A stretch of DNA of 64,000 nt. Origin: Motilibacter deserti (GTDB lineage: Bacteria > Actinomycetota > Actinomycetes > Motilibacterales > Motilibacteraceae). The stretch covers positions 900,933 to 964,932 of the forward strand of contig NZ_JAANNP010000001.1 of the NCBI RefSeq assembly GCF_011250635.1, written 5' to 3'. Positions 1,791-59,685 of this stretch are shown here, one piece after another; the stretch's first letter is position 1; every line of letters starts with the position of its first letter. The notes under the pieces were generated by a model. It was given only the letters and a program-made list of their open reading frames with translations. It made no database searches and was not told the origin of the DNA. Position numbers and translations under genes: made by a program.

Positions 1791-3014
1791 ATGGAGGTCC
1801 TGCAATCTGCCAAGCTCGCCGATGTCCTCTACGACGTCCGCGGCCCCGCACTGACCCGGGCGAAGGAGCTGGAGAGCGCAGGGCACCGGGTCCTCAAGCT
1901 CAACATCGGCAACCCCGCGCCGTTCGGCTTCGAGGCGCCGCACGAGCTGCTCGAGGACATGATCGCGAACCTGCCGATCGCGCAGGGCTACAGCGACAGC
2001 AAGGGCATCCTCTCGGCCCGCCGCGCGGTGATGCAGTACGCGCAGAACAAGGGCTTCCCCAGCGTGGACGTCGAGGACATCTACCTCGGCAACGGCGTCA
2101 GCGAGCTGATCGTCATGGCGCTTCAGGGCCTGTTGGACAACGGGGACGAGGTGCTCGTCCCGGCGCCGGACTACCCGCTGTGGACCGCGTCGACAAGCCT
2201 GGCCGGCGGGCGCGCGGTGCACTACCGGTGCGACGAGTCCAACGGCTGGCAGCCCGACATCGAGGACCTCGAGTCCAAGGTCACCGACCGCACCAAGGCG
2301 ATCGTCGTGATCAACCCGAACAACCCCACCGGCGCGGTCTACGACCGGCCGGTCCTCGAGGCCATCACCGAGGTCGCGCGGCGGCACGGGCTGCTGATCA
2401 TGGCCGACGAGATCTACGACAAGATCCTCTACGACGACACGGTGCACACGTCGATCGCGTCGATCGCCCCCGACCTGCTCTGCCTGACCTTCAACGGGCT
2501 GTCGAAGGCGTACCGCGTCGCCGGCTTCCGGTCCGGCTGGATGATCGTCTCCGGCCCGAAGAAGCACGCGGCCAGCTACATCGAGGGGCTGGACCTGCTG
2601 GCCAACATGCGGCTGTGCCCGAACGTCCCGGCGCAGCACGTGATCCAGGCCGCGCTCGGCGGCTACCAGAGCATTCACGACCTCCTGCTGCCCGGCGGCC
2701 GGCTCCTCGAGCAGCGCGACCTCACGTGGAAGCTGCTCAACGAGATCCCCGGCGTCAGCTGCGTCAAGCCCCGCGGCGCGCTCTATTGCTTCCCGCGTCT
2801 CGACCCCGAGGTCTACCCCGTGCAGGACGACCGCCGGCTCATCCTCGACCTGCTCGAGGAGCAGCACGTGCTCGTGGTGCAGGGGACGGGCTTCAACTGG
2901 TTCGCCCCCGACCACTTCCGCATCGTGACCCTCCCCCGGGTCGAGCAGCTCGAGGACGCGCTCGGGCGCATCCGCAGCTTCCTCGAGGACCGCGACTGGA
3001 GCGCGCGCCGCTGA
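1791..3014 (+). CDS. class I/II PLP aminotransferase, alanine transaminase type
   Basis: This is a 407-residue aminotransferase of fold type I, close to AlaT-type enzymes that exchange the amino group between alanine and 2-oxoglutarate in the cytoplasm. Visible signatures are the N-terminal LNIGNPAPFGFEAP, NPNNPTGAVY at 175-184, ADEIYD at 205-210, and the PLP-lysine segment SKAYRVAGFR with K239. I chose the ATG at 1791 because GGGAGG lies 8 bases upstream (1777-1782) and the family begins at this MEVLQSAKLADVLYDVRGP segment. A longer in-frame ATG at 1749 would add 14 unlikely residues. The gene stands alone and is closed by a strong hairpin. Substrate specificity beyond the family is inferred. 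Confidence 0.88.
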   Translation: MEVLQSAKLADVLYDVRGPALTRAKELESAGHRVLKLNIGNPAPFGFEAPHELLEDMIANLPIAQGYSDSKGILSARRAVMQYAQNKGFPSVDVEDIYLGNGVSELIVMALQGLLDNGDEVLVPAPDYPLWTASTSLAGGRAVHYRCDESNGWQPDIEDLESKVTDRTKAIVVINPNNPTGAVYDRPVLEAITEVARRHGLLIMADEIYDKILYDDTVHTSIASIAPDLLCLTFNGLSKAYRVAGFRSGWMIVSGPKKHAASYIEGLDLLANMRLCPNVPAQHVIQAALGGYQSIHDLLLPGGRLLEQRDLTWKLLNEIPGVSCVKPRGALYCFPRLDPEVYPVQDDRRLILDLLEEQHVLVVQGTGFNWFAPDHFRIVTLPRVEQLEDALGRIRSFLEDRDWSARR

Positions 3015-21886: not shown

Positions 21887-22807
21887 TCAGGCCGCGGCGG
21901 CGACGCGGCGGACGAGCTCGGTCCGCAGCTCGTGCGCGCCGTCGGCGCGAGTGGCCTCGTAGTAGGCCCGCCACCCCTCGGCGACGGGCACGACGGTGAC
22001 GTAGCGCAGGCCGCCGGGGGCGTGCGGCGACACGAGGACGGGCTCCTCGCCCAGCGCGGTGAACGTCCCGGCCGGCAGCGAGCCCACCGCGACCCCGGTC
22101 TGCTCCTCCCAGTTCTGCCCGGGCGTCGCACGACCGTCGTAGTAGGCCAGCAGCCGGTCGCCGTCGACGAGCACCGCGCTGAGCCGCACGCCCCGTGCGT
22201 CCCACAGCCCGGGACGGCCGGCGAGGGCGGTGCCCTGCCACTGCCAGTCGACGCCGTCGAGGCTCGTCGCGTGCTCGGTCGTCATGCGGTCCGTGGCAGA
22301 GGGGTCGTCGAGGGGGTGCACCGACGCCCACAGGTGCCAGCGCCCGTCGTGGTGCACGATCACCGGGTCCTTGGGCGCCGCCTGCCCGGTGCACGGGAGC
22401 ACGGTCCGCGGGGCCGCGGTGGCGAGGCCCTCCGGCGTCGCCGCCTCGAGCAGGTCCACCCGCCAGCCGCGGGTGCCCGGGATGGCCGCGCTGACGTACA
22501 TCCGCCACCGGCCCTCGGGTGTGACCACGACGGCGGGGCGCTCCAGCGACTCGGCGCCGAAGGCGTCCTTCTCGACCACCGCGACCGTCTCGAAGCGCAC
22601 GCCGTCCGCCGAGCGGGCCAGGACGTTCGCGTAGCCGCGCCCCTCCCCCACGGGCCGGCGCATCCGGTAGGCCAGGTAGTGGACGCCGTCCACGACCAAC
22701 GCGCTCGGGCCGCCCGCCCACGCGCCCGGCCGGCCCTCGGGCGGCTCCACCACGACCGTGCCCGCGTCCCAGTCCAGCAGAGGCAGCCCCTCGGGCAGGT
22801 CCGTCAC
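21887..22807 (-). CDS. cytoplasmic five-bladed beta-propeller protein, glycosidase-like
   Basis: The product is 306 residues with repeated propeller blades of the GH32/43/62/130 type (GGPSALVVDGVHYLAYRMRR; ERPAVVVTPEGRWRMYVSA; KDPVIVHHDGRWHLWASVH; SAVLVDGDRLLAYYDGRA; RYVTVVPVAEGWRAYYEA). No signal peptide is present, so it is not an exported polysaccharide enzyme. I cannot identify a complete catalytic triad, so activity is uncertain. The GTG at 22807 has GGAGGA 8 bases upstream; the ATG at 22837 lacks such a site. It is divergent from the APS kinase gene, with 127 bp between them. Confidence 0.65.
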   Translation of the reverse strand: MTDLPEGLPLLDWDAGTVVVEPPEGRPGAWAGGPSALVVDGVHYLAYRMRRPVGEGRGYANVLARSADGVRFETVAVVEKDAFGAESLERPAVVVTPEGRWRMYVSAAIPGTRGWRVDLLEAATPEGLATAAPRTVLPCTGQAAPKDPVIVHHDGRWHLWASVHPLDDPSATDRMTTEHATSLDGVDWQWQGTALAGRPGLWDARGVRLSAVLVDGDRLLAYYDGRATPGQNWEEQTGVAVGSLPAGTFTALGEEPVLVSPHAPGGLRYVTVVPVAEGWRAYYEATRADGAHELRTELVRRVAAAA

Positions 22808-22934
22808 GATGCTGTTCCTCCAGACCGGGGCCGTCATGGTCGCCAAAGGATCGTCCACCGCTCGCACGGTCGGCAAACGCGCGCGGCGACGGTGCCCGAG
22901 GGGCGGACGACCGGCGTACGCGAAGCTGGGGCCC

Positions 22935-24338
22935 ATGAGCGCGGTGCCGAGCAGCGAGGTCTCCGTCCGGGTGGACGACGCGACCGCCGACGACGTCGAG
23001 CTGGCCCTGTCCGGTGCGTACGCCCCCGGCCCCCGGCTTTTGACGGCCCCGGAGCGGGCGGCGGTCGCCGCTGACGGCACGCTGCCCGACGGAACCGGGT
23101 GGGAGCTCCCGCTCGCCCTGGCCCTGCCCGCCGGGACGGAGCAGGTCACCTCGGGCGACCGCGTCGTGCTCGTGGACTCCGAGGCGGTGCCGTTCGCGGC
23201 GCTGACGGTCGCCGAGGCGGCCGAGGAGGACGGGCACACGCTGCTGGCCGGCCCGCTGGAGCGGCTGCGCCCGCGCAGCCCCGGCATCTTCGCTTCGCTG
23301 CGCCTGGCCCCGCAGGAGGTACGCGGCGAGCAGGGCGGCCCGGTGCTCGCCGTCCCGTGCGCCCGGCCGCTGCACCGGCACGACGTCGACGCGATCCTGG
23401 CCGCCGCCGCCCGCGACGGCGCGCAGGTGCTGCTGCTCGGCCTCGTCGGCGCCGGGCGCGAGGTGCCCGCCGAGCAGCTGGTGCGCGCGCTGCGCCCGCT
23501 GGGCCTGCGAACCCGGCTCGTGCCGCTCCCCGCCCACCCCGGCCTGCAGCCCGTGGCCGCGGCCCGGCTCGCGGTGCGCGTGGCGGCCGCGTACGGCGCG
23601 GACCGGGTGCTGCTGCCCCACGCGGACGGGCTGTCGCAGGGCGTCGGGGACGGCCTGCCCGTGCCGGTCGAGGTCGGGCCGGAGGGGCCGCTGCCGGCGC
23701 CGGCCCTCGCACAGCTGCTGGACCGCGGGGAGCCGCTGCCCGAGGGCTTCACCTTCCCCGAGGCCGAGCGCGCCCTGCGCCACGCCCACCCGGCCACCAC
23801 CGAGCGCGGGCTCGTCATGCTCTTCACCGGCCTGTCGGGGTCGGGCAAGTCGACCGTCGCCCGCGCGGTGGTCGAGGCCGTGGTCGAGCGCAGCGACCGC
23901 ACCGTCACGCTGCTGGACGGCGACGTCGTGCGCACGATGCTCTCCTCGGGGCTCGGGTTCTCCCGGCCCGACCGGGAGCTCAACGTCCGCCGCATCGGCT
24001 GGGTCGCCGCCGAGATCGCGCGGCACGGGGGCACCGCCGTGTGCGCGCCGATCGCGCCCTACGCCTCCGTCCGCGCCGACGTCCGCGCGATGGCCGAGCG
24101 GGCCGGGGCGTACGTCCTCGTCCACGTCTCCACGCCCTTGCAGGTGTGCGAGGCGCGCGACCGCAAGGGCCTCTACGCGAAGGCGCGGGCCGGCCTCATC
24201 CCCGAGTTCACCGGCATCTCGGACCCCTACGAGGCGCCGGACGACGCCGACCTGGTGCTCGACACGTCCGTCGTCACGCTCGAGGAGTGCGTCGAGCGGG
24301 TGTGGCGGCTGCTCGTCGACCGGCGCCTGGTGGGGTGA
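22935..24338 (+). CDS. cysC: APS kinase with N-terminal sulfurylase-like domain
   Basis: The product is 467 residues. The C-terminal half (about 290-467) is a complete adenylyl-sulfate kinase: P-loop GLSGSGKS at 299-306, DGDVVRTMLSSGLGFSRPDRELNVRRIGWVAAEIARHGG, and APIAPYASVRADVR. It makes PAPS from APS and ATP. The first 290 residues resemble the PUA-like and catalytic regions of ATP sulfurylase, but I find neither the QxRNPxHxxH-type motif (here CARPLHRHDVDAI) nor GRDHAG, so this half is probably inactive or regulatory. True sulfurylase subunits CysN and CysD lie 5-8 kb away on the other strand. The ATG at 22935 begins the family-like MSAVPSSEV; 59 upstream codons look non-coding. Confidence 0.85.
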   Translation: MSAVPSSEVSVRVDDATADDVELALSGAYAPGPRLLTAPERAAVAADGTLPDGTGWELPLALALPAGTEQVTSGDRVVLVDSEAVPFAALTVAEAAEEDGHTLLAGPLERLRPRSPGIFASLRLAPQEVRGEQGGPVLAVPCARPLHRHDVDAILAAAARDGAQVLLLGLVGAGREVPAEQLVRALRPLGLRTRLVPLPAHPGLQPVAAARLAVRVAAAYGADRVLLPHADGLSQGVGDGLPVPVEVGPEGPLPAPALAQLLDRGEPLPEGFTFPEAERALRHAHPATTERGLVMLFTGLSGSGKSTVARAVVEAVVERSDRTVTLLDGDVVRTMLSSGLGFSRPDRELNVRRIGWVAAEIARHGGTAVCAPIAPYASVRADVRAMAERAGAYVLVHVSTPLQVCEARDRKGLYAKARAGLIPEFTGISDPYEAPDDADLVLDTSVVTLEECVERVWRLLVDRRLVG

Positions 24339-29274: not shown

Positions 29275-30525
29275 TCAGTCCTGGCCGGTGGTGTTGAGCA
29301 TGCCCGCGCCGACCGTGCGGTTGGTGGCCTCGTCGACGAGGATGAAGCCGCCGGTCGCGCGGTTGCGGCCGTACGGGTCGGCGAACAGCGGCACGGTGGT
29401 GCGCAGCCGGACCCGGCCGATGTCGTTGAGGCCGAGCTGCTCGACGCCCTCCTCGCGGTGCAGGGTGTTGACGTCGAGGCGGTACTGCAGCTCCTTGACC
29501 ATCGCCCGCGCCGAGCGTGTCGTGTGCTTGACGGCGAGCTTCTGGCGAGGGCGGAGCGGCTCGTCGGTCATCCAGCACACCATCGCGTCGACGTCCTGGG
29601 TGACGTGCGGGGTGTTGTGCGGCCGGCAGATCATGTCGCCGCGGGAGATGTCGATCTCGTCCTCGAGGCGGATGGTCACCGACATCGGGGAGAACGCCTC
29701 GGCCACCGGGCCGCTCGGGCCGTCGATGCCGGCGATGCGGGAGGTGAAGCCACTGGGCAGCACCATGACCTCGTCACCGGGCTTGAAGACACCGCCGGCG
29801 ACGGTGCCTGCGTAGCCGCGGTAGTCGGGGAACTCGCGCGACTGCGGACGGATGACGTATTGAACAGGGAAGCGCGCATCCACGAAGTTGCGGTCGCTCG
29901 CGATGTGCACGTGCTCGAGGTGGTGCAGCAGCGACGGGCCTTCGTACCACGGCATGTTCTTCGACCGGTGGACGATGTTGTCGCCCTCGAGCGCGGAGAT
30001 CGGGATGATCTGCACGTCGGGGAAGTCGAGCTTGGACGCGAACCCGGTGAACTCGGAGGCGATCTGCTCGAAGACCTCCTGTGAGTAGTCGACGAGGTCC
30101 ATCTTGTTGACCGCGACGACGAGGTGCGGGACGCGCAGCAGCGAGACCAGGAACGAGTGCCGGCGGCTCTGCTCCAGGATCCCCTTGCGGGCGTCGACGA
30201 GCACGATCGCCAGGTCGGCCGTGGAGGCGCCGGTGACCATGTTGCGGGTGTACTGGATGTGCCCGGGGGTGTCCGCGATGATGAACTTGCGCCGCGGGGT
30301 GGCGAAGTAGCGGTAGGCCACGTCGATCGTGATGCCCTGCTCGCGCTCGGCGCGCAGGCCGTCCGTGAGCAGCGCGAGGTTGACGTAGTCGTTGCCCGCG
30401 CTGGCGCGCTCGACGGCTTCGTACTGGTCCTCGAAGATCGACTTGCTGTCGTAGAGCAGCCGGCCGATGAGCGTGCTCTTGCCGTCGTCTACCGAGCCGG
30501 CGGTCGCGAACCGCAGGATGTCCAT
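29275..30525 (-). CDS. cysN: sulfate adenylyltransferase subunit 1 (GTPase)
   Basis: The product is 416 residues, a translation-factor-like GTPase that drives ATP sulfurylase. G1 is GSVDDGKSTLIGRLLYD (about 11-27); the G3 region is ADTPGHIQYTRNM; G4 is AVNKMDLVDYS; further domain-II strands such as FPVQYVIRPQSREFPDYRGYAGTVAGG follow. It has no fused APS kinase domain; cysC is separate. With CysD it forms APS from sulfate and ATP. Its ATG lies 1 base after the cysD stop. It is the last gene of the leftward operon controlled by the SAM-IV riboswitch at 33743-33856. Confidence 0.95.
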   Translation of the reverse strand: MDILRFATAGSVDDGKSTLIGRLLYDSKSIFEDQYEAVERASAGNDYVNLALLTDGLRAEREQGITIDVAYRYFATPRRKFIIADTPGHIQYTRNMVTGASTADLAIVLVDARKGILEQSRRHSFLVSLLRVPHLVVAVNKMDLVDYSQEVFEQIASEFTGFASKLDFPDVQIIPISALEGDNIVHRSKNMPWYEGPSLLHHLEHVHIASDRNFVDARFPVQYVIRPQSREFPDYRGYAGTVAGGVFKPGDEVMVLPSGFTSRIAGIDGPSGPVAEAFSPMSVTIRLEDEIDISRGDMICRPHNTPHVTQDVDAMVCWMTDEPLRPRQKLAVKHTTRSARAMVKELQYRLDVNTLHREEGVEQLGLNDIGRVRLRTTVPLFADPYGRNRATGGFILVDEATNRTVGAGMLNTTGQD

Positions 30526-30526
30526 G

Positions 30527-31447
30527 TCAGAAGTAGCCTTCCCGCTTACGGTCCTCCATGGCGGCCTCGCTCACCTTGTCGTCGCCGCGGGTGGCCCCGC
30601 GCTCGGTGAGCCGGGTCGCCGCGACCTCGGCAACGATCTTCTCGAGCGTGTCCGCCTCCGAGCGGACGGCCGCGGTCAGGTTGGCGTCGCCGACCGTGCG
30701 GTAGCGCACCGTCTCCACCGTCGACGTCTCACCCTCGCGCAGCGCGATGAACTCGTTGACCGCGTAGAGCATCCCCTGCCGGTCCACCACCTCGCGCTGG
30801 TGCGCGAGGTAGAGCGACGGGATCTCGATGCTCTCCTCGAGGATGTAGTTCCAGATGTCGAGCTCGGTCCAGTTCGACAGCGGGAAGACGCGGATGGACT
30901 CGCCCATGTGGATGCGCCCGTTGTAGAGGCTCCAGAGCTCGGGGCGCTGGTTCTTCGGGTCCCACTGGCCGAACTCGTCCCGGAAGGAGAAGACCCGCTC
31001 CTTGGCCCGCGCCTTCTCCTCGTCGCGCCGGGCGCCGCCGAAGGCCGCGGTGAAGCCGTGCTTCTCGATGGCCTCGAGCAGGACCGGCGTCTGGATGCGG
31101 TTGCGCGAGCCGTTGGGCTCCTCGCGCACGAGGCCGCGCTCGATCGCGTCGGGCACCGAGGCGACCAGCAGCTGGACCCCCAGCTCGGCCGCCCGCTTGT
31201 CGCGGAAGGCGAGCACCTCGGGGAAGTTGAGCCCCGTGTCCACGTGCAGGACCGGGAACGGGATGCGCGCCGGCCAGAACGCCTTCTCGGCGAGCCGGAG
31301 CATCACGATCGAGTCCTTGCCGCCGGAGAACAGCAGCACCGGCCGCTCGAGCTCGGCCACGACCTCGCGGAAGATGTGGATCGACTCGGCCTCGAGCGTC
31401 TTCAGCTGGGTGAGGCGGTAGTCGGGGTTGCCCTTGGGGGTGGTCAT
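30527..31447 (-). CDS. cysD: sulfate adenylyltransferase subunit 2
   Basis: The product is 306 residues, the catalytic subunit of ATP sulfurylase with a PAPS-reductase-like ATP pyrophosphatase fold. The P-loop segment VLLFSGGKDSIVMLRLAEKAF (about 37-57) is followed by HVDTGLNFPEVLAFRD, FGGARRDEEKARAKERVFSFRD and FPLSNWTELDIWNYI. The C-terminal DRKREGYF is the usual ending. The ATG at 31447 overlaps the cysQ stop (ATGA, 31444-31447), implying coupling; the open frame reaches 32047 but the upstream part is a shadow of cysQ. The functional partner cysN follows after 1 base. Confidence 0.95.
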   Translation of the reverse strand: MTTPKGNPDYRLTQLKTLEAESIHIFREVVAELERPVLLFSGGKDSIVMLRLAEKAFWPARIPFPVLHVDTGLNFPEVLAFRDKRAAELGVQLLVASVPDAIERGLVREEPNGSRNRIQTPVLLEAIEKHGFTAAFGGARRDEEKARAKERVFSFRDEFGQWDPKNQRPELWSLYNGRIHMGESIRVFPLSNWTELDIWNYILEESIEIPSLYLAHQREVVDRQGMLYAVNEFIALREGETSTVETVRYRTVGDANLTAAVRSEADTLEKIVAEVAATRLTERGATRGDDKVSEAAMEDRKREGYF

Positions 31448-32274
31448 CGCGCGCCCTCGTCCTTCCGGCCCGTTGCCGTCCCAGCACTGCCTGCCGCGCC
31501 GTCGGCGGAGCCCGCACCGCCCGAGAGCGACGCGATCGCCGCGAGCACGGCGTCCGCGAGCTCGGGGCGGCACACGACCAGGTCCGGCAGCGACGGGTCG
31601 GGCCGATTGTAGGCAAGCGGCGAGCCGTCGACCCGGCTCGTGTGCAGGCCGGCCGCGCGGGCGACGGCGACGGGGGCGGCGGAGTCCCACTCGTACTGCC
31701 CGCCGGTGTGGACGTAGGCGTCGGCCTCGCCGCGCAGCACGGACATGGCCTTGTAGCCGGCCGAGCCCATCGGCACCAGCTCGGCGCCGATCTCCCGCGC
31801 GACGCCCTTCACCAGCTCGGTCGCCCGGCTCCGGCTGACCGCGAGCCGGGGCGCGGCGCCCGCGGGGCGCGCGGGCGGGGCGGCCGCGTCGTCGGTCGCG
31901 AGGACGATGCCGCTCGCGCCGACCGCCGGCAGGGCGACGGCCCCGTCGGTCAGCTCGCCGTCCTGCCAGAGCGCCACGTGCACGGCCCAGTCGTGGCGGC
32001 CGGCCTCGCCGTACTCCCGCGTGCCGTCCAGCGGGTCCACGATCCACACCCGGCGGGCGGTGAGCCGGACGGGGTCGTCCAGCGCCTCCTCGGACAGGAC
32101 CGCGTCGTCCGGGCGCAGCCGCGCGAGCAGGTCGGCGATGACGGCCTGGGCGGCGGCGTCGGCGCGGGCCCGCAGGTCCGGGGCGCCGGCCGCGGTGGCG
32201 CGCAGCGCGAGGAGGGTGTCACCGGCCTCGGCGGCGACGGTGCGGGCGACGGAGACGTCGGAGAGAGCGGACAC
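31444..32274 (-). CDS. cysQ: 3'(2'),5'-bisphosphate nucleotidase
   Basis: The product is 276 residues of the inositol-monophosphatase-like family. The metal-binding motifs are LSEEALDD, WIVDPLDGTREYG (DPLDGT) and a C-terminal YEWDSAAPVAVARAAG (WD motif). It converts the by-product PAP to AMP and can adjust PAPS levels. The start is at 32274, 16 bases after the preceding desulfurase stop. Its stop overlaps the cysD start. Sitting inside the sulfate-activation operon fits CysQ and not a general inositol phosphatase. The last 25 residues are a low-complexity Gly/Ala/Ser tail. Confidence 0.9.
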   Translation of the reverse strand: MSALSDVSVARTVAAEAGDTLLALRATAAGAPDLRARADAAAQAVIADLLARLRPDDAVLSEEALDDPVRLTARRVWIVDPLDGTREYGEAGRHDWAVHVALWQDGELTDGAVALPAVGASGIVLATDDAAAPPARPAGAAPRLAVSRSRATELVKGVAREIGAELVPMGSAGYKAMSVLRGEADAYVHTGGQYEWDSAAPVAVARAAGLHTSRVDGSPLAYNRPDPSLPDLVVCRPELADAVLAAIASLSGGAGSADGAAGSAGTATGRKDEGAR

Positions 32275-32290: not shown

Positions 32291-33700
32291 CTACTGGTGG
32301 GTCTGGCGGCGCAGGATGCGGGCCGCGGTGCCCGCCGCCGAGGGTCGTGCGTCGCTCGCCACGGCCCAGCCGGTCGACGTGCGAGTGTACTGAGCGCGCG
32401 GCCCCGCCTGGGTGAGCGCGCGCAAGCCCCCGACCAGGGCGTCGACGTCGGCCTCGGTCGTGGCCACGCCGATGCTCGCCCGCAGCGCGGTCCCGGACGC
32501 GGCGTCCCCGCACCCGTCCACCGGCCGCTCGCAGTCGAGCAACGCGTCGACGAGCGGGTGGGCGCAGAACCGCCCGTGCCGCACGCCCACGCCGTGCTCG
32601 GCCGAGAGCGCGGTGGCCAGCAGGGCCGGGTCCCACCCCTCGACGGTGAACGTCGCGACGCCGATGCGCTCCACGGCCTCGCCCCACAGCCGGTGCACCC
32701 GCAGGCCGGGGACCGACGCGAGCCCGGCCTCGAGCCGGGCGAGCAGCGCGTGCTCGCGCCGCTCCAGCGCCGCCCGGCCGGCGGCCTCCAGCTGCGCGCA
32801 CGCCACCGCGATCGCGACGGCGCCGAGCACGTTCGGCGTCCCGCCCTCGTGGCGCGCCGGGCCGGCCGCCCAGGCCTGCCCCGCGGTCGTCACCGCGGTC
32901 GTCGCCCCGCCCCCGGGCAGGTAGGGCCCGGCCGCGTCCAGCCAGTCGGCACGGCCGGCGAGCACGCCGGCACCGTAGGGCGCGTAGAGCTTGTGCCCGG
33001 ACAGCGCCACCCAGTCAGCGCCGAGCGCCCGCAGGTCGACGACGCGGTGCGGGGCGAGCTGCGCGGCGTCGACCGCCACCCGGGCGCCGTAGCGGCGCGC
33101 GAGGGCGACGACCTGCTCGACCGGCCAGACCTCCCCCGTCACGTTGCTCGCCCCGGTGACGGCCACGAGCACGGGCCCGTGAAGCCCACGCAGCGCGCCC
33201 TCCAGCGCATCGAGCGCCGCCTGCGGCGAGGCCGGCACCGCCAGCAGCACGTGCCGGCCGCCGCGCTCCGCGTGCCCGCGCCACGGCAGGAGGTTCGCGT
33301 GGTGCTCGGAGGCGTACGACACGACCGTGGTGCCGGCTGGCAGGCAGTGCGCCAGCAGCGCGAACGCGTCGGTGGTGTTGCGGGTGAAGACGACCTGGTC
33401 GCCGGGGCGGCACCCGAGGAAGCCGGCGACGCCCGCACGGGCCTGCTCGAGGAGCTCGGTGCTGACCTGCGAGGCGTAGCCCGCGCCGCGGTGGACGCTC
33501 GCGTACCACGGCAGGGCCTCGGCGACCGCGTCGGCGACGGCCTGCAGGCACGGCGCCGAGGCGGCCACGTCGAGGTCGGCGTACGCCGTGGTGCCGCCGG
33601 TCGCGAGCGGGGCCCGGCGCCCGGCGCCGACCACGGGCAGGGGGCGCCCGGGCACGGGCAGGAAGGCGGTGGCGACCGGGCGCTCGTCCAGCAGCGTCAT
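32291..33700 (-). CDS. class V aminotransferase, SufS-like cysteine desulfurase
   Basis: The product is 469 residues. The PLP-lysine lies in ADWVALSGHKLYAPYGAGVL (about 233). A candidate active-site Cys lies in GVRHGRFCAHPL (about 378), which lines up with the 'R.G..CAQPL' Cys of SufS. An extra N-terminal 45 residues and a C-terminal 40 residues extend beyond the usual 410. It would release sulfane sulfur from cysteine for Fe-S or other sulfur transfer. Good ribosome site GAGGAG before the ATG at 33700. It is the first gene of the operon with cysQ-cysD-cysN and directly follows the SAM-IV riboswitch. No suf or isc genes are nearby, so its acceptor is unknown. Confidence 0.8.
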   Translation of the reverse strand: MTLLDERPVATAFLPVPGRPLPVVGAGRRAPLATGGTTAYADLDVAASAPCLQAVADAVAEALPWYASVHRGAGYASQVSTELLEQARAGVAGFLGCRPGDQVVFTRNTTDAFALLAHCLPAGTTVVSYASEHHANLLPWRGHAERGGRHVLLAVPASPQAALDALEGALRGLHGPVLVAVTGASNVTGEVWPVEQVVALARRYGARVAVDAAQLAPHRVVDLRALGADWVALSGHKLYAPYGAGVLAGRADWLDAAGPYLPGGGATTAVTTAGQAWAAGPARHEGGTPNVLGAVAIAVACAQLEAAGRAALERREHALLARLEAGLASVPGLRVHRLWGEAVERIGVATFTVEGWDPALLATALSAEHGVGVRHGRFCAHPLVDALLDCERPVDGCGDAASGTALRASIGVATTEADVDALVGGLRALTQAGPRAQYTRTSTGWAVASDARPSAAGTAARILRRQTHQ

Positions 33701-33742: not shown

Positions 33743-33856
33743 GGTCCGCGCTTGCCGGGCGCACGGCGCGCTCGGCCAGGTCGTCACCCGGAGCACCCCA
33801 CCGCGGAGGAGGGTTGCCGGCCAGCAAGCCGGGGCTGAACGCTGGCACTCGTGACC
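33743..33856 (-). ncRNA. SAM-IV riboswitch
   Basis: On the minus strand the leader begins GGTCACGAGTGCCAGCG and continues with the core pieces CCCCGGCTTGCTGG, CCGGCAACCCTCC and GGGGTGCTCCGGGTGACGACC, ending with the pseudoknot strand GGCAAGCGCGGACC. These match, nearly base for base, the actinobacterial SAM-IV element known from Mycobacterium. It ends about 42 bases before the ATG of the desulfurase gene. S-adenosylmethionine binding normally turns such operons off. Only four of the expected outer P1 pairs are Watson-Crick here, a small deviation. I identified it by eye and not with a covariance model. Confidence 0.9.
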
Positions 33857-59280: not shown

Positions 59281-59685
59281 GGAACCTCCTGGACTAGACG
59301 ACGGAGTCTGGTGCTGCTACCCGGCGAAGGTGCGGCTCCACCCCCTTCCACCCAGGAAAAAGCCGGGGACCAGCCGTTCAGGGACAAGACGGGGCGGCAC
59401 CCACCCGGCCGACCTGGTCTTCGACCCCACATCCGCCTGCTGAGGGGCTCGCAGCCTCATGGCCACTACTGCCCTTCTCCCGGGACGGGAGCCATCTGGA
59501 CTCCCGGCGAGGCAGGACTTACTTCTAAGCCGCACCGTGATCAGTCGACGAGAAGTCGCCTTACGTGGACCGTTTTGCCTGCGGCTGGCATCGGCTAGCC
59601 GGAGGCGGGACCGGACGGGCGGATGCCCGTACGCGGCCACTGCCCCGGCGCAACCACGGGCCCGGGTGGGTGCCATGGACGAACG
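59281..59685 (-). promoter_or_regulatory. 405-bp leader/promoter region of hpf
   Basis: This gap between comF and hpf is the longest in the right half of the window. It includes the hpf ribosome site and a small hairpin (CGGGAG at 59486-59491 with CTCCCG at 59501-59506). It has no gene I can support. The length suggests a long 5' leader or several promoters for hpf, a gene often under stress or growth-phase control, but I found no convincing SigB-type or SigF-type motif. Confidence 0.4.

Follow-up and report, generated by a model that had tools for sequence, protein, structure and literature searches.

A SAM-IV riboswitch precedes a desulfurase-cysQ-cysD-cysN operon in Motilibacter deserti

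Introduction

The closest described counterparts of the locus analysed here are found in Streptomyces, where a SAM-IV riboswitch precedes the cysteine desulfurase gene SLIV_26975 of Streptomyces lividans TK24 (PMC8079986) and the class-V PLP enzyme gene CRV15_21540 of Streptomyces clavuligerus (PMC8269248). In Mycobacterium avium, SAM-IV stands before the O-acetylhomoserine sulfhydrylase gene MAV_4315 (PMC3774663), with homocysteine synthesis as the target, which is the textbook type for this family. Sulfate activation genes under a SAM riboswitch are known from Bacillus subtilis, whose cysHP-sat-cysC-ylnDEF operon has been named as regulated by the S-box (PMC2743287). The cysDN genes of Streptomyces coelicolor lie in a separate cluster, SCO6097-6098 (PMC4991794).

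Here we describe a SAM-IV element within a 64,000-nt stretch of the Motilibacter deserti genome (the window). The two Streptomyces loci share with it the aptamer family and, going by annotation, the type of first gene, but no cysQ-cysD-cysN has been reported behind their SAM-IV elements. The M. avium locus shares the aptamer family. The B. subtilis operon is alike in placing sulfate activation genes behind a SAM riboswitch, but this is of another class (SAM-I), the enzyme is Sat instead of CysDN, and neither a desulfurase nor cysQ is present. We found no link between SAM-IV and cysDN in the literature searched, an absence which is not in itself proof. What is new is only the combination of SAM-IV with sulfate activation genes, which is limited to the family of the window; each half of it was known before.

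Results

An Rfam scan of the whole window identified a complete SAM-IV aptamer (RF00634) at 33856-33743 on the minus strand, which matches positions 1-116 of the 116-position model with 106.4 bits (gathering threshold 38, E 1.4e-18) and is the sole SAM-IV in the 5.0-Mb genome. Its score is close to the upper end of the range of the family, and the conserved core is intact in an alignment of 24 sequences. Between the window and a sister species the aptamer changes at two positions only, both in the P5 loop region, while the desulfurase proteins are 85% identical. Judged by these matches the element is a genuine and canonical SAM-IV riboswitch, which presumably binds SAM. The window also holds a complete raiA RNA (RF03072, 143.2 bits) at 59400-59670 on the minus strand.

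The first gene has its ATG 42 nt 3′ of the aptamer on the same strand (32291-33700) and encodes a 469-aa SufS-like class-V PLP enzyme, a putative cysteine desulfurase (PF00266, Aminotran_5, E 5.8e-81). It is followed, still on the minus strand, by cysQ (31444-32274, GTG start, PF00459) for a 3′(2′),5′-bisphosphate (PAP) phosphatase, by cysD (30527-31447) for the small subunit of sulfate adenylyltransferase and by cysN (29275-30525) for its GTPase subunit. The adjacent CysD and CysN both exceed their subfamily cut-offs (TIGR02039, 444 bits, cut-off 397; TIGR02034, 569 bits, cut-off 336) and make up a CysDN ATP sulfurylase. CysQ scores 104.6 bits with the equivalog model TIGR01331, under the curated cut-off of 228.8, and a CysQ-like function is likely despite this, since the closest match in the PDB is the PAP phosphatase 5djf (E 1.9e-61). 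Read from the sequence, the successive junctions measure +16 nt, -4 nt (an ATGA overlap) and +1 nt, and neither a sigma70-like promoter nor a terminator-like site on the minus strand turned up inside the operon in a consensus scan, which is a weak test in a GC-rich genome. A first-pass annotation had placed a SAM-IV core on the minus strand just before a SufS-like desulfurase, with cysQ, cysD and cysN following at junctions of 16 bases, a 4-base overlap and 1 base; the covariance match falls at exactly its coordinates, the profile matches confirm the gene order and the junctions are as it stated. We suggest that the riboswitch and the four genes lie on one transcript.

Of the curated models, the SufS family TIGR01979 fits the first enzyme best, with 263.6 bits against a cut-off of 475.1, and another gene of the same genome reaches 567.9 bits on this model. 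The latter is likely the real SufS of the genome, and these two scores rule out the operon enzyme as SufS proper; by its profile it is a SufS-like paralogue. It has the lysine and the cysteine loop of the Type II (SufS-like) cysteine desulfurase superfamily: the PLP-binding lysine motif SGHKLYAPxG is found in 24/24 members of its clade and the active-site cysteine motif RxGxFCAHP in 23/24. Because these motifs are kept and the solved structures related to the enzyme by sequence alignment are cysteine desulfurases, desulfurase-type chemistry is likely.

The distribution of this pairing was examined in 98 relatives of the same class. SAM-IV is present in 47 of them, and the desulfurase clade is the downstream gene of 23 of the 61 elements inspected with flanking DNA (window included), the remainder standing before MetY- or MetX-type genes, transporters and other genes. 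Seen from the enzyme, a desulfurase at a threshold of ≥300 bits occurs in 25 genomes and has SAM-IV directly upstream in 23; in G019 and G093 the gene lacks an upstream SAM-IV, and Rfam finds none there. Among 80 relatives from named genomes, including Kribbella, Pseudonocardia, Nocardioides, Amycolatopsis, Blastococcus, Geodermatophilus and others, the pairing is seen in 68. No conserved partner gene was found among the neighbours of the desulfurase in relatives, and cysQ, cysD or cysN stands beside it in none of the 80. The desulfurase clade is thus an ordinary SAM-IV target, among the commonest downstream genes, and was already published as such for Streptomyces. The first-pass annotation had regarded SAM-IV as best known before methionine/homocysteine genes and had set the present locus against this; with regard to the desulfurase the contrast does not stand, given the above counts and the Streptomyces reports (PMC8079986; PMC8269248), but it does for cysQ-cysD-cysN.

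Some further SAM-IV arrangements were seen in the survey. One locus (L034, G003:C16) carries two back-to-back elements, at 1956-2073 (-) and 2175-2291 (+) with about 100 nt between them, one being oriented towards a desulfurase, its counterpart towards a luciferase-like monooxygenase gene. G004 has a further SAM-IV (L037) before a GST-like gene and the same type of monooxygenase, and in L084 (G006:C11) SAM-IV is followed by a small ORF, a rhodanese-like protein and a MetY/MetZ-type enzyme. Contig CAIXWQ010000747.1 (L192), labelled as a delta proteobacterium, contains SAM-IV (111.9 bits) and the desulfurase, which probably reflects mis-binning of actinobacterial DNA.

A comparison by eye of the position lists for SAM-IV and for CysD, which 77 of the 98 genomes encode, placed the two near each other only in G000, G001, G003 and G004, all of the family of the window and four of its five genomes. 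The operon is the same in G001 and G004, complete with SAM-IV and desulfurase. In G003, SAM-IV stands immediately before cysQ-cysD-cysN and the desulfurase is absent from the locus; a distant desulfurase with its own SAM-IV is encoded elsewhere in that genome, and is 51% identical to that of the window and 62–64% identical to those of other families. The fifth member, G002, has cysQ-cysD-cysN with neither desulfurase nor SAM-IV. As the element of G003 directly precedes cysQ-cysD-cysN with no desulfurase in between, the switch belongs to these genes too, which supports the earlier proposal that it appears to gate sulfate activation. From these gene arrangements we conclude that sulfate activation is a predicted SAM-IV target in this family in its own right, not dependent on the desulfurase, which has either been lost at the G003 locus or been gained in the other family members.

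As the genome contains no Sat-type ATP sulfurylase and a single copy of CysD, CysDN is the only sulfate-activating enzyme found. An ORF with an APS kinase domain (22758-24338, plus strand; PF01583, 186 bits) is located some 5 kb past cysN, on the strand opposite to it, and its long N-terminal part has no match to ATP sulfurylase (PF01747). CysH is encoded on another contig, which has no SAM-IV, with a sulfite reductase and an ABC transporter as its neighbours; its curated match above cut-off is a PAPS reductase (NF002537), and it carries the CC...CxxC residues that are characteristic of iron-sulfur APS reductases. The PF01053 family is represented by a clear cystathionine gamma-synthase and by a second enzyme that comes closest to cystathionine gamma-lyase, and neither MetY nor MetZ was found in the genome. 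Methionine sulfur apparently comes via cysteine, and with CysDN as the sole ATP sulfurylase found, end-product feedback by SAM on sulfate activation is therefore a reasonable reading.

Downstream of the aptamer, the expression platform (33742-33698, minus strand) can form a hairpin, CCUCG(c)AGGUC-CCU-GACCUCGAGG with an outer CGUGAG/CUCAUG stem, that covers the Shine-Dalgarno sequence GAGGAG (33711-33706) and the AUG. Its MFE is -23.2 kcal/mol (z -3.70 against dinucleotide shuffles), and its inner stem is retained in the sister species (L033) and re-formed from other bases in G004 (L036). The P1 3′ strand GACCUG (33782-33777, minus strand), identified by direct sequence and constrained folding, would pair in the SAM-bound form with CAGGUC at 33858-33853, and it is also complementary to a second CAGGUC at 33726-33721 (-), its proposed alternative partner. 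Read directly from the sequence, this switch arm could serve either as an anti-sequestor with the P1 3′ strand or as the 5′ arm of the hairpin over the ribosome-binding site (RBS).

Of 74 desulfurase leaders with GACCNGG, 11 carry the exact 7-nt complement further downstream, where 3.75 would be expected, and the leader of the window has a 6-nt version; a general search, open to all complements of the P1 3′ strand, gave a result at chance (p 0.97). The architecture GGTCC-loop-GACC-GGAG, a pattern defined after the leaders had been inspected, occurs in 23 of 91 desulfurase leaders against 0.15 in shuffles, and in 0.14% of background 90-nt windows. Folding energies were -99.3 for the minimum, -92.8 for the anti-sequestor state and -91.2 for the P1-formed state, the last two not being clearly separated. 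The RBS hairpin stays in the minimum-energy structure when folding is unconstrained, and two balanced states were not seen in these energy calculations.

Discussion

We consider it probable that the SAM-IV element is a SAM-dependent off-switch for the whole desulfurase-cysQ-cysD-cysN operon and acts by masking the RBS. When SAM is bound, P1 would close and leave the downstream CAGGUC arm free to join the hairpin that buries GAGGAG and the AUG, whereby translation of the desulfurase gene would stop; translational coupling and loss of mRNA would lower cysQ-cysD-cysN as well. At low SAM, the P1 3′ strand would instead pair with this arm and the RBS would be exposed. The model builds on the aptamer, the gene order, their conservation and the pairing potential of the platform, from which switching and repression by SAM are predicted. 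Feedback would run from sulfate via APS (made by CysDN), sulfite, sulfide, cysteine, cystathionine, homocysteine and methionine to SAM, so that a full methionine pool would probably shut off the intake of sulfur.

RBS masking has to be weighed against attenuation, in which the SAM-bound aptamer would cause transcription to terminate in the leader. In S. clavuligerus, Term-seq style data are reported to show premature termination of transcription at the SAM-IV leader of the class-V PLP enzyme gene (PMC8269248), so some members may be controlled at the level of transcription. In the window, too, a strong hairpin ends at the AUG, but no U-run follows it, no minus-strand terminator-like site was found, and its end coincides exactly with the Shine-Dalgarno sequence and AUG, which suits translation control; we therefore think attenuation unlikely here.

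The extent of the regulated unit can also be questioned, as SAM-IV might control the desulfurase only, with cysQ-cysD-cysN merely adjacent and driven by a promoter of their own inside the desulfurase gene. SAM-IV with the desulfurase alone is indeed the general arrangement in Actinomycetes, and G002 has cysQ-cysD-cysN with neither. Against this, the element of G003 directly precedes cysQ-cysD-cysN, the junctions are tight, and the scan of this high-GC genome, weak as it is, found no promoter-like site, which makes such a division quite improbable. That the aptamer is a degenerate relic which has lost its switching we regard as most improbable, as no point in support of it was found and both the match, which spans the whole model with a score at the high end for the family, and the two aptamer changes, set against 85% identity of the desulfurase proteins, speak against it. 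Repression of the whole operon by RBS masking is hence the reading that we favor.

More tentatively, we raise a joint proposal which is possible but on balance doubtful: that the SAM-IV-linked SufS-like clade represents a distinct desulfurase serving an unrecognised SAM-related need, and that in this family SAM-IV has in addition come to control the sole ATP sulfurylase, with SAM itself as the direct feedback signal on the entry of sulfate.

The leaders offer a candidate translation-control platform for SAM-IV, in which the P1 3′ strand and the Shine-Dalgarno arm would compete for one GGTCC arm, and which is found in at least 12 genera. One of the commonest SAM-IV targets, beside MetY/MetX, is a SufS-like enzyme of putative role, which poses the question of why SAM would turn a desulfurase off. 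With the arrangement described here, the first step of sulfate assimilation would join the SAM-IV regulon in one actinobacterial family.
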